Assembly: GCA_016931695.1 (NCBI GenBank)
Contig: JAFGEI010000217.1
Span: 30,248-94,247, forward strand
Origin: Anaerolineae bacterium
Lineage (GTDB): Bacteria; Chloroflexota; Anaerolineae; B4-G1; DUEL01
DNA: 64,000 bases
Direction: 5' to 3'
Each line of letters starts with the position of its first letter. The stretch's first letter is position 1. The position numbers were made by a program, and so were the translations under genes. The notes beneath the pieces were generated by a model. The model was not told where the DNA came from, searched no databases, and was given only the letters and a program-made list of their open reading frames with translations. Positions 14,875-19,219 of the stretch are shown piece after piece.

Positions 14875-15540
14875 TCAATACCCTGCCCCCTCCAAGAGGT
14901 TGATCGCTGCGATCAGCACGTTCAGGGCATTGTTCACCTCTTGCCGCGCCACTCCCCACTGCTGGAAGGGGATGCTTCCTCCCTCCGGGTTGGCCAAAAA
15001 GTCCCGGCAATTCTGGGTCATATTTGCCGCACCAGACGAAAAAATATAGACTGCTTGCTGATAGCTGGCGTAGGCGTTTTGCACCGTCGAACTGCTCCCG
15101 GAGACATTGTAGGTTGGCGCAGCGACGATGGCATCGTAAGAATCGACAACGTCCTGACAGTCGATCCACCCCTGTCTCACTGCGACGTCGATCAGGCCGC
15201 CAAATCTCTCGATTTGCGTGCGCTTGGTGCGCAGCGTGCCCAACAGCTGAGACCCAACGTCCCGTGGAACGGCGGTCGGCGGGGGGCCAGCTGGAGTTGC
15301 AGTGGCAGTCGCCGTTTCGGTGGGCGGTGGAACGGGGGTCGACGTCAACGTGGGAGTTGGTTCTGGCGTCGGCGTATTCGTCGGCTCCGGCGTGTAGGTC
15401 GGCAGAGGGGTATAGGTCGGATAAGGCGTCGCGGTTGGATACGGCGTAGGCGTCGGCTCCTCTTCGGTCAGGCTGCATGCCGCCTGGACCACAATCGACA
15501 ATAAAAGGCAAATAACCAGAACGAGCAATTTCTTTTTCAC
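14875..15540 (-). CDS. Exported Thr-Pro-rich linker protein, unknown function
   Basis: The protein has 221 residues from the GTG at 15540, which sits six bases after AAGGAGG; the track's ATG upstream would place this site inside the gene. The N-terminus KKKLLVLVICLLLSIVVQAAC is a signal segment ending in an AAC that could be an imperfect lipobox. About 65 residues rich in Thr and Pro follow (TPTPYPTATPYPTYTP), a spacer typical of Chloroflexota surface proteins. The C-terminal 130 residues contain no domain I recognise; they look helical, with two cysteines. Its promoter -35 coincides with a GAAC-N4-GTTC SOS-type box shared with divergent recA, so damage-dependent expression is possible. Confidence 0.8.
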   Translation of the reverse strand: MKKKLLVLVICLLLSIVVQAACSLTEEEPTPTPYPTATPYPTYTPLPTYTPEPTNTPTPEPTPTLTSTPVPPPTETATATATPAGPPPTAVPRDVGSQLLGTLRTKRTQIERFGGLIDVAVRQGWIDCQDVVDSYDAIVAAPTYNVSGSSSTVQNAYASYQQAVYIFSSGAANMTQNCRDFLANPEGGSIPFQQWGVARQEVNNALNVLIAAINLLEGAGY

Positions 15541-15634
15541 GTTTTTCCTCCTTGAATCCAGTTGCATCATCGATACCCGTCTCGCTTTGATCCCTGCAAA
15601 AGGAAAAAGTCCAGGCCGACAGCGGGGACGGCAC

Positions 15635-15663
15635 ATTATAGCATAGAACGCGCGAGGGAACCA
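15635..15663 (-). promoter_or_regulatory. Promoter of the Thr-Pro-rich exported protein (minus strand)
   Basis: The minus strand shows TATAAT (15640-15635). A weak -35, TGGTTC, lies 17 bases upstream (15663-15658). The -35 falls inside the SOS-type box. Confidence 0.55.
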
Positions 15664-15669
15664 CTGTTC
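15658..15669. promoter_or_regulatory. SOS (LexA) box, GAACCACTGTTC
   Basis: GAAC-CACT-GTTC matches the GAACNNNNGTTC core of the Gram-positive-type LexA operator (Cheo box). It lies 86 bases before the recA ATG, 22 bases upstream of the recA -35, and directly over the -35 of the divergent gene. Binding by LexA is inferred; no lexA gene is in the window. Confidence 0.7.
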
Positions 15670-15690
15670 GAGCAAACCAGCTCAGATCAT

Positions 15691-15719
15691 TTGCTCTTTC
15701 CCCACTTTTGTAGTAAACT
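15691..15719 (+). promoter_or_regulatory. recA promoter
   Basis: TTGCTC (15691-15696) and TAAACT (15714-15719) are 17 bases apart. A small inverted repeat, GTAGT...ACTAC, spans the -10 and start region. The GAGGAGG at 15735-15741 lies 13 bases before the ATG, unusually far for a ribosome-binding site. Confidence 0.6.
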
Positions 15720-15754
15720 ATTTATCACTACAATGAGGAGGACAACGAGACAAG

Positions 15755-16789
15755 ATGACAGAAGAAGGACGCAGGAAGGCGCTGGAATCGGCGTTGGCAA
15801 CGCTGACCAAGCGGTTTGGGGAAGGGACGGTGATGCGGTTGGGGGAAGCGTCGCACCTGGCAGTGGACGTCATCCCCACCGGTTCACTCTCGCTTGATCT
15901 TGCCCTGGGCGTCGGCGGCATTCCGCGGGGCCGCGTGACAGAGATTTATGGGCCGGACGGAGCCGGCAAGACCACCCTGGCCCAGCACATTGTCGCCGAA
16001 GCGCAAAAGAAGGATGGGGTAACGGCGTACATCGATATGGAGCACGCCCTGGACCCCACCTATGCTGCTGCCTGCGGCGTTGATGTGGACAACCTCTACA
16101 TTTCTCAGCCGGATACAGGAGAACAGGCTCTCGAGATCGCCGAAGCATTGGTGCGCAGCGGTGCGGTCGACCTGGTCGTGATCGACTCGGTCGCGGCCCT
16201 CGTGCCCCGAGCGGAGCTCGAAGGCGAGATGGGGGATTCCCACCCCGGACTGCAAGCACGGCTGATGAGCCAAGCCCTGCGCAAGTTGTCGGGAGCTATC
16301 AAGCAGTCGAACACGGCCATGGTCTTTACCAACCAGCTGCGAGAAAAGATCGGCGTCATGTTCGGCAATCCCGAGACCACTTCCGGTGGCCGTGCGCTCA
16401 AATTCTATGCCAGTGTGCGGCTCGACGTGCGACGAGTGACGGGGATTAAGCACCGCGGAGAAATGATCGGCGTCCGCACCCGCGTGCGAGTGACCAAGAA
16501 CAAGGTCGCGCCGCCGTTTCGAGTTGTCGAGTTCGACATTATCTATGGCCAGGGAATCAGCCGGGAGGGCGACCTGCTAGACCTGGGCGTTGATCTTGGG
16601 GTGATCGAAAAACGGGGCTCGTATTATGGTTACCAGGGCGAGAACTTTGCCCAGGGACGGGAAAGTGCCAAGAATTACCTGGCAGAAAATCCGGAGCTGA
16701 CCAATACCATCGAGTCCGTGATTCGCCAACAGGCGCTGGTACCCCCAACCGACGATTCCGACGACTCGGAAGACATAGAATTGAGCTAG
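15755..16789 (+). CDS. recA: Recombinase A
   Basis: This 344-residue RecA catalyses strand exchange and LexA cleavage in the SOS response. It shows the Walker A motif GPDGAGKT (a variant of the usual GPESSGKT), [12 protein letters not shown], the Walker B region [24 protein letters not shown], the L2 segment [24 protein letters not shown] and the C-terminal domain, ending in an acidic tail, [12 protein letters not shown]. The ATG at 15755 gives the standard N-terminus. A GAACCACTGTTC operator upstream indicates LexA control. Downstream is a structured region ending in a strong terminator just before recX, so recX output probably depends on read-through from recA. Confidence 0.98.
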
Positions 16790-16811
16790 GTTTTCCCAGC
16801 CAACTTCCTGC

Positions 16812-17021
16812 GTCGCGGCTGAACCACAGCCACGACAATGATTGCGTGTTCTACCCTTTGATGGGATACCCGTCAAAGGAAGGCCCTGTGTGACCGGTAT
16901 TTGTTGGTGAATCGAGCGTAAAAGGGGGTCCCCCAGCAGTCCGACGTTGGGGTAGGCACTTTTTCTACCGGTCCAGACACGCGAGACCCGCCGTGGCGGT
17001 TGAGCCACGGCGGGTTTTTTT
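16812..17021 (+). ncRNA. Candidate structured RNA between recA and recX
   Basis: Four consecutive helices can be drawn by eye. H1 is GTCG-GGCTG / CAGCC-CGAC (16812-16836). H2 is CCTTTGA-GGG / CCC-TCAAAGG (16855-16879). H3 is a long-range stem, GTGTGACCGGTA (16888-16899), pairing with TACCGGTC...ACAC (16966-16980), enclosing a GGGGGTCCCCC hairpin. H4 is the intrinsic terminator. The region holds no ORF. It could be a small RNA, or a leader that controls entry into recX. I cannot assign it to a known RNA family. Confidence 0.45.
16987..17021 (+). terminator. Intrinsic terminator immediately upstream of recX
   Basis: CCCGCCGTGGC-ggttga-GCCACGGCGGG is a perfect 11-bp stem followed by seven T residues. 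The T run touches the recX ATG at 17022, so recX has no ordinary ribosome-binding site and its initiation region is part of the terminator. Confidence 0.9.
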
Positions 17022-17672
17022 ATGGGTGGACAGATCACAGCATTAAAGGTTCAAAAACGCAACCCGCAGCGGGTGAACGTCTTTTTGGACGGTCAATTCG
17101 CTTTCGGGCTGGCGGCGATCGAGGCAGCCCATCTGCGGACGGGGCAGTTCCTCTCTGACGACGAGGTCGCCAGCCTGAAAGGGCGGGACGCGGTAGAACG
17201 GGCGGCCGACCGCGCGCTGAACCTCCTCTCCTATCGCCCTCGCAGCCAGGTGGAGGTCCGCCGCCGTCTGGCTGAAAAAGGTTTCGAGGACGAGGCAATT
17301 GACGGGGCGCTGGATCGCCTACAGCGCAGCGAGTTAGTCAATGATCGGGCTTTTGCCCGCTATTGGATTGAAAATCGGTTCCAGTTCAAACCTCGGGGTT
17401 TGGCCCTGTTACGCCAGGAACTGCGCCAAAAGGGAATCGACGACCGGATCATCGTGGAAACCCTCGCGGAATACGATGAAAATGATGCCGCAGTTCGGGC
17501 TGCTGAAGGAGGCATTCGCCGCTTGCGCGGTCTCGAGCCGGCTGCCTTTCGGCGCAAGCTGACGGATTATCTGCGGCGGCGGGGGTTTTCCTACTCGGTC
17601 ATCGCCCCCATCGTGCAGCGCGCCGTGGCCGACCACGCCCCAGAGGACTCTTGGCAAAAAGATGAGGTGTGA
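17022..17672 (+). CDS. recX: RecX-family regulator of RecA
   Basis: This 216-residue protein begins MGGQITALKVQKRNPQRVNVFLDGQFAFGL, the usual RecX N-terminal extension, followed by three-helix RecX repeats (NLLSYRPRSQVEVRRRLAEKG, ELVNDRAFARYWIENR, DYLRRRGFSYSVI). RecX binds RecA filaments and limits their extension. The start at 17022 is fixed by homology because the next in-frame starts cut conserved residues. It directly abuts the T run of a strong terminator and lacks a normal ribosome-binding site; GGCGGG in the hairpin arm is the only purine-rich candidate. The stop lies two bases before the rny ATG, so recX and rny are probably co-translated. Confidence 0.92.
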   Translation: MGGQITALKVQKRNPQRVNVFLDGQFAFGLAAIEAAHLRTGQFLSDDEVASLKGRDAVERAADRALNLLSYRPRSQVEVRRRLAEKGFEDEAIDGALDRLQRSELVNDRAFARYWIENRFQFKPRGLALLRQELRQKGIDDRIIVETLAEYDENDAAVRAAEGGIRRLRGLEPAAFRRKLTDYLRRRGFSYSVIAPIVQRAVADHAPEDSWQKDEV

Positions 17673-17674
17673 CA

Positions 17675-19219
17675 ATGAACGGTTGGACAATGAATGGCTT
17701 GTGGATCATCCTGTTCGGTATTGTCGGCCTGGGGGTCGGAATTGCGGTCGGGTATTACCTCAACCGGATGGTGGGGCAGAACCAGATCGCCAAGGCCCAG
17801 GCAGAAGCGCAGCGGATCACAGCAGACGCCGAGTCCCGGGCTCAGAACGCGGTCCTGGCGGCAAAGGATGAAGCGGTCAAGATTCGCGACCAAGCCCAGG
17901 CCGAGTCGTCGCGCTGGCGGGCGAACCTGCACCGCGAGGAGGAGCGGCTGCAGAAACGGCGGGAGCAGCTCGACGAGCGGCAGGAGACGCTGGACAAGCG
18001 CGAGCAGCGGCTGGGCAAGCGCCAGAGCACGATTGACCGGCAGCGGAACGAGATACAGAAACTCTACGACCAGCGGCTGCAGGAGTTGGAAAAAGTAGCA
18101 CAAATGACCCGCGGCGAAGCACACCAAGAACTGCTCCAGGTGGTGGAGGACGATGCCCGCCAGGATATGGCCCGCATTATCCGCGAGATCGAACAAGAGG
18201 CAAAGGAGGAAGGAGATCGGCGGGCGCGCAAAATCCTCACCGTGGCCATCCAGCGGATAGCAACCGACCACGTGGCCGAGATGACCGTCTCTTCCATCGA
18301 TTTGCCTTCCGACGAGATGAAGGGCCGCGTGATTGGCCGCGGCGGGCGAAATATCCGCGCCTTTGAACAGGCCGCCGGTGTAGACGTGGTGGTCGACGAC
18401 ACCCCCGAGGCGATAACAATCTCCTGCTTCGATCCGATCCGCCGCGAGATCGCGCGCCGGTCGATGGAACGGCTGGTGGTCGACGGACGGATTCACCCCA
18501 GCCGCATCGAAAAAATCCTCTCGGATTCGCGCAAAGAGGTGGAGCAGGTCATCCGCGACGAAGGGGAGCGGGCGGTCTATGAGGCGGGGGTGTCCGGCCT
18601 CCATCCCGAACTGGTCAAGCTGTTGGGCAAGCTCTACTTTCGCACCAGCTACGGCCAGAACCAGCATGCCCACGCCATCGAATCGGCCAAGCTGGCGGCA
18701 ATGCTCGCCGCCGAGCTAGGAGCGAACGTCGAGGTGTCCCGGCTGGGCGGGCTGCTGCACGACATCGGCAAGGCGATCGACTTTGAGGTGGAAGGCACGC
18801 ACTCGGCCATCGGGGCCGACCTGGCGCGGCGGTACGGCGTGCCCGACGAGGTGGTGCACTGCCTGGAAGCCCACCATCACGAGGTGGAACCCCAGTCGGT
18901 AGAGGCGGTCATCGTTGAGGCGGCAGATGCCATCTCCGGCGCTCGCCCCGGCGCCCGGCGGGAAAGCCTGGAACAGTACATCAAGCGCATTCACGCCCTG
19001 GAAGAGATCGCCTCTTCCTTCGACGGCGTCGCCGAGACCTATGCCATCCAGGCCGGCCGCGAGATTCGCATCATCGTCAAGCCGGAAGAGATCGACGACC
19101 TAGCCGCCATTCAACTGTCGCGGGATATTGCCACCAAGATCGAGGAGGGGATGCAGTATCCAGGCCAGATCAAGGTGATGGTGATTCGAGAGACGCGGGC
19201 GGTCGATTATGCCAAGTGA
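17675..19219 (+). CDS. rny: Ribonuclease Y
   Basis: This 514-residue membrane-anchored endoribonuclease initiates mRNA decay. An N-terminal transmembrane helix (LWIILFGIVGLGVGIAVGYYL) is followed by a long coiled coil (about residues 35-190, rich in Glu/Arg/Gln), a KH RNA-binding domain (DEMKGRVIGRGGRNIRAFEQAAGVDVVVDDTPE), and an HD domain with LLHDIGKAID and EAHHHEVEP metal-ligand segments. The ATG at 17675, seven bases after GAGG, is preferred over the GTG at 17669. The last 50 bases overlap the 3' end of a convergent small gene. Confidence 0.96.
   Translation: MNGWTMNGLWIILFGIVGLGVGIAVGYYLNRMVGQNQIAKAQAEAQRITADAESRAQNAVLAAKDEAVKIRDQAQAESSRWRANLHREEERLQKRREQLDERQETLDKREQRLGKRQSTIDRQRNEIQKLYDQRLQELEKVAQMTRGEAHQELLQVVEDDARQDMARIIREIEQEAKEEGDRRARKILTVAIQRIATDHVAEMTVSSIDLPSDEMKGRVIGRGGRNIRAFEQAAGVDVVVDDTPEAITISCFDPIRREIARRSMERLVVDGRIHPSRIEKILSDSRKEVEQVIRDEGERAVYEAGVSGLHPELVKLLGKLYFRTSYGQNQHAHAIESAKLAAMLAAELGANVEVSRLGGLLHDIGKAIDFEVEGTHSAIGADLARRYGVPDEVVHCLEAHHHEVEPQSVEAVIVEAADAISGARPGARRESLEQYIKRIHALEEIASSFDGVAETYAIQAGREIRIIVKPEEIDDLAAIQLSRDIATKIEEGMQYPGQIKVMVIRETRAVDYAK

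Follow-up and report, generated by a model that had tools for sequence, protein, structure and literature searches.

What does the spacer between recA and recX do, and which genes does it serve? In the window, by which we mean the whole stretch of 64,000 nucleotides that was analysed, the genes recA, recX and rny (RNase Y) lie in succession on the forward strand, and the 232 nt between recA and recX are closed by a terminator that reaches the start codon of recX. From comparison with related genomes, we conclude with a probability of about 0.72 that this element is a leader of recX and rny which works as a transcription attenuator.

Features of the locus

The window comes from a draft genome (G000) of 3.87 Mb that is 93% complete, and the nearest named relatives of this genome are uncultured Anaerolineae/Thermoflexia of the phylum Chloroflexota. 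The genes and the RNA elements of the spacer are given in Table 1. Strand 1, strand 2 and strand 3 denote the three sequences that can form either an antiterminator (1 with 2) or the terminator (2 with 3). The upstream gene recA is likely the source of the leader transcript.

Table 1 Genes and predicted RNA elements of the recA–recX–rny locus, in order of position in the window
Feature	Position	Strand	Description
recA	15755..16789	+	Upstream gene; open reading frame; Pfam RecA (1.9e-131)
Hairpin 1	16812..16836	+	GTCGCGGCTG-AACCA-CAGCCACGAC; MFE fold; retained in an alignment to the four nearest relatives
Strand 1 (antiterminator strand), GCCACG	16829..16834	+	39 nt after the recA stop; positional equivalent of the class-wide strand 1
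P1 5' strand, GCGTGT	16844..16849	+	Pairs with 16977-16982
P2 hairpin	16855..16879	+	CCTTTGATGGG-ATA-CCCGTCAAAGG; MFE fold
P3 5' strand, GACCGGTA	16892..16899	+	Pairs with 16966-16973; MFE fold only
P3 3' strand, TACCGGTC	16966..16973	+	Pairs with 16892-16899; MFE fold
P1 3' strand, ACACGC	16977..16982	+	Pairs with 16844-16849
Terminator 5' arm (strand 2), ACCCGCCGTGGC	16986..16997	+	Contains the GCYRYGG core that is conserved in the class
Terminator 3' arm (strand 3), GCCACGGCGGGT, with run of seven T	17004..17021	+	3' arm 17004-17015; T at 17015-17021
recX	17022..17672	+	Pfam RecX_HTH1/2/3; start conserved in relatives
rny (RNase Y)	17669..19219	+	Pfam RNase_Y_N, KH_1, HD; overlaps the recX stop

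Structure of the leader

The 210 nt from 16812 to 17021 fold at −104.4 kcal mol−1, compared with −73.2 ± 4.8 kcal mol−1 for shuffled sequences (z = −6.5). No shuffle was as good, in agreement with the first-pass annotation, which had described the spacer as structured. When both switch strands are taken out, the interior in the window still folds at z = −2.7. The interiors of 26 leaders without their switch strands gave a mean z of −2.6, with 18 of the 26 below −2. The length of this domain is variable, roughly 130 to 600 nt, and no shared interior sequence core was found between aligned families.

Hairpin 1: The 3' arm of this hairpin contains strand 1. Hairpin 1 could therefore act as an anti-antiterminator.

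P1 and P3: A single long-range stem had been drawn here at first, which is better drawn as two helices. The four nearest relatives have P1 at the equivalent position with compensatory variants, identified by eye as CGTCAC/GTGACG (twice), TGTCAC/GTGACA, and GTCACG/CGTGAT. The closing helix that adjoins the antiterminator reaches z = 4.8 class-wide. P3, on the other hand, is not recovered in the consensus fold of the relatives.

P2: At the place of P2, the relatives carry a hairpin as well, with a different sequence.

The terminator before recX

In the window, the terminator is a perfect hairpin with the loop GGTTGA, and its T run abuts the recX ATG at 17022, as first described. We compared it with 141 distinct regions upstream of recX, sampled from the family, the order and the class. 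Nearly all are from Anaerolineae, and a few, from a collection of named genomes, carry other labels. With a terminator called as a terminator-like hairpin with a score of at least 20, 122 of the 141 regions have one within 80 nt of recX, and a T-rich tail is present in 118. The core GCYRYGG is found in the 5' arm of 86 of these 122 terminators. The ribosome-binding site of recX had been regarded as not normal. It is weak, with 4 of 6 matches to AGGAGG, but not unusual, as no other score is more frequent in the 141 recX genes.

The hairpin of the window followed by TTT occurs a single time in the whole genome of origin, upstream of recX. Two exact forms of the hairpin followed by TTT were searched in 48 whole genomes of the order, and overlapping and opposite-strand readings of one site were counted once. 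Of the 14 distinct sites obtained, 13 are located just upstream of recX and the fourteenth lies in an unrelated coding region. In the control with reversed patterns, there was no match for the first form and three raw matches, all in one genome, for the second. As 13 of the 14 sites lie just upstream of recX, the terminator is close to a recX-specific sequence that is present about once per genome.

A third strand predicted to compete for the terminator arm

Many relatives carry an upstream strand that duplicates the terminator 3' arm and is able to pair with the 5' arm. The leaders cannot be aligned between families (an alignment by sequence across families failed), and therefore an alignment-free test was used in which the 5' arm of each genome was matched to the upstream region of that genome and, for comparison, to the upstream regions of the others. 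Own versus permuted scores in 108 non-redundant regions gave z = 9.5, or z = 10.0 with a slightly different definition of the arm. The controls for the latter value were 1.4 (3' arm), 0.4 (reversed arm) and 0.4 (complemented arm). With one genome for each of 26 families, the median z is 4.0 (5–95% range 2.4–5.3). Families f7, f8, f13, f29, f31 and f36 show no excess complementarity. Clear three-strand variants are GCCACAGCTATC/GATAGCTGTGGC, GCTGTAGCCGT/ACGGCTACGGC, CGCAACGC/GCGTTGCG, and TGTCACAGCTTTT/AAAAGCTGTGACG. In other Chloroflexota, beyond this class, the spacer between recA and recX is mostly short and its terminator simple or missing, and third-strand pairing is not in excess there (z = 1.3, n = 15).

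Where the third strand is strong, in silico folds of transcripts that stop at the end of the 5' arm show strands 1 and 2 almost fully paired in nearly all relatives. In full-length folds, the terminator usually displaces the antiterminator, and in a few (e.g., L046, L118, L179, L209) the antiterminator still wins. The anatomy in these models is that of an attenuator in which the antiterminator would form first and is then challenged. The comparison across the class thus shows three strands whose pairings are predicted to be mutually exclusive, and a terminator/antiterminator attenuator that is widespread in this class is well supported at the level of sequence. The first-pass annotation is thus supported in part, and well so in its proposal of an attenuator. 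Covariation in relatives, which it had named as the test of its helices, holds for the terminator, the third strand and P1, and fails for P3.

The putative antiterminator in the window

The window itself is a weak instance. Its strand 1 offers only 6 bp (GCCACG/CGTGGC) with a pairing probability of about 0.2 on the nascent transcript. At full length, a fold with the antiterminator enforced is 11 kcal mol−1 less favourable than the terminator. Taken alone, this strand would not exceed chance. Its support comes from the four nearest relatives, which have GCCACGACGA at the same position. The best third strand proposed automatically in the window, GTCGCGGC, was set aside for the positionally conserved GCCACG. 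With so short an antiterminator, part of which is sequestered in hairpin 1, transcription in the lineage of the window is probably terminated by default.

A plain, unregulated terminator has to be weighed at this point. According to Pages 2003 as cited in PMC3542578, recX of E. coli is expressed by about 10% read-through of the terminator after recA. Partial read-through could likewise keep RecX below RecA here, with the other folding being incidental, and the very strong terminator of the window together with its weak antiterminator fits such a design. Against it stand the class-wide covariation of third strand and terminator, an interior that folds more strongly than expected by chance, and the presence of the element also at recX genes without linkage to recA (see below). 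The other Chloroflexota, with their short spacers, no or simple terminators and z = 1.3 (n = 15), also speak against it. An antiterminator strand and an element kept without recA do not match the simple read-through-only terminator of E. coli, and we consider this explanation improbable.

The element follows recX and rny, not recA

In several families, recX is not located near recA, and the leader element is still present. The genes upstream of such unlinked recX genes include those for a cobalamin adenosyltransferase, release factor 3, a PH-domain protein, and a LysM protein. The GCYRYGG core is kept in 34 of 41 terminators that have no recA in at least 1200 nt upstream. Downstream, the picture is constant: rny is found directly 3' of recX on the same strand in 103 of the 105 loci with room for it. 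This adjacency (window 17022-19219; L031-L121) holds with or without recA nearby. From the gene spacing, we infer that recX and rny are on one transcript and that rny is the second gene of the controlled operon. Because the element persists away from recA and rny lies downstream in nearly all loci, the controlled unit is taken to be recX–rny, and the leader element belongs to this operon. For the same two reasons, the role first assigned to the attenuator, setting the RecX:RecA ratio, is too narrow, although it stays one possible role.

Translation of recA was considered as a general signal and rejected, as many loci have recA elsewhere and the distance between the recA stop and strand 1 is variable. 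Likewise, a ribosome at this stop would not always cover strand 1, since the distance spans 8 to about 190 nt.

Some genomes in which no recX was found carry rny in other settings. In one near-complete genome (L261), a similar terminator precedes rny (GCCGTGA...TCACGGC), with a third strand that is non-significant (p = 0.09). Three loci of family f40 (L262, L263, L264) have no such leader before rny; there, rny follows directly after recA with a gap of about 140–175 nt.

RNA classes and promoters

The first-pass annotation had matched the spacer to no known RNA class, and the search confirmed this: at the gathering threshold, Rfam gave no match in the window or in the leaders of 40 relative loci, and only three tRNAs were detected elsewhere in those loci. 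Relaxed settings yielded only sub-threshold matches at chance level. A direct DNA search with the spacer returned short matches only, mostly to the terminator arms. With a sigma-70 model that is not built on the promoters of this phylum, no sigma-70-like promoter was found in 15500-17300, and such promoters were in no excess over shuffles before strand 1 in the relatives. In four loci with recX unlinked from recA (L075, L078, L085, L101), a common promoter-like TTGTGC/TTGTAC-17-CATAAT is present about 60 nt before strand 1, which is non-significant against shuffles.

These searches bear on a second explanation, a stand-alone structured small RNA in which strands 1 and 2 are the closing stem and the terminator only makes the 3' end. 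The long closed structure with its 5'–3' closing stem and the strong folding would suit such an RNA, and the terminated transcript would itself be one. We regard it as less probable still than the plain terminator: the element lies directly upstream of recX–rny, with the two exact hairpin forms otherwise in one coding region only among the 48 genomes; the interior has no conserved core; and neither an Rfam match nor a significant promoter was found. A classical metabolite riboswitch, whose folded domain would bind a ligand while P1 and the antiterminator serve as expression platform, shares the terminator/antiterminator layout of such platforms but is very improbable, as known riboswitches have strongly conserved cores and the domain here varies in length and sequence with no core common to the families.

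In four loci (L084, L093, L096, L109), the recA–recX spacer of about 365 nt is well conserved in sequence, unlike the spacers of other families. RNase P, tmRNA and 6S were considered for these spacers and rejected, as Rfam gave no match. A word similar to GGGTAGGCA is common to the window and seven loci, including these four. The leaders of family f2 (L043-L051) have a conserved GTCCTTCTC near the 5' side and words similar to GAGAAGGAC near the 3' side, which are able to pair.

Proposed mechanism

In the attenuator that we favour, strand 1 near the start of the leader would pair with the terminator 5' arm (strand 2). Together with P1, this pairing would close the large folded domain, and the polymerase would continue into recX and rny. 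If strand 2 is taken up by strand 3 instead, the terminator would form and transcription would halt just before the start codon of recX. Read-through in cells would then be set by the competition of the strands. As the interior is long and folded and its sequence can drift freely, we favour a signal that acts on its shape or integrity over a ligand pocket.

As a guess, RNase Y activity is the leading candidate for this signal. In B. subtilis, RNase Y cuts the 5' UTR of its own mRNA (PMC10303841). A cut of the nascent leader by RNase Y could separate strand 1 from strand 2, which would lead to termination and hence to less RNase Y. That the attenuator reads RNase Y activity class-wide, with the drifting folded interior as the target and with RNase Y and RecX being shut off together, is a doubtful, tentative extension. 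If the attenuator itself is real, a single RNA switch would govern a main RNA-decay enzyme and a main recombination brake in a large class of mostly uncultured bacteria.

The attenuator would be an unusual one, as the switch strands are kept over very long times while the domain between them drifts freely. The drifting interior makes sensing by shape or by cleavage, as opposed to a ligand pocket, a testable matter, and the compensating changes in the three strands predict the read-through, which offers a clear mutational test.

Comparison with known systems

E. coli recA–recX: As proposed here, a terminator between recA and recX limits the transcription of recX. In contrast to E. coli, the Anaerolineae element combines a large folded domain with an antiterminator strand predicted to compete for the terminator arm, and it follows recX even away from recA, with rny downstream in what appears from the gene spacing to be the same operon.

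Leader attenuators: In B. subtilis rplJL (PMC4538822) and in the TRAP/trp system (PMC3913778), a mutually exclusive antiterminator and terminator likewise lie upstream of an operon. The Anaerolineae leader differs in that it has no known binding protein or effector, its interior sequence is not conserved, and its target is recX–rny.

B. subtilis rny: The 5' UTR of rny is a control site there as well (PMC10303841). The control in B. subtilis consists of mRNA cleavage and decay, whereas the Anaerolineae leader has the predicted anatomy of a transcription attenuator.

A conserved antiterminator/terminator pair before recX–rny was not found in Rfam or in the searchable literature, a search that most subscription papers lie outside. 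As far as searched, the recX–rny attenuator is thus undescribed.

A related arrangement was seen in four small genomes of other Chloroflexota (L238, L242, L247, L249). They have a terminator before recX, which contains GGGGCTGAGGCA... in three of them, and the recA coding region itself holds a complementary strand, TGCCTCAGC, about 43 nt ahead of its stop. This is possibly a simpler attenuator that is blocked by translating ribosomes.
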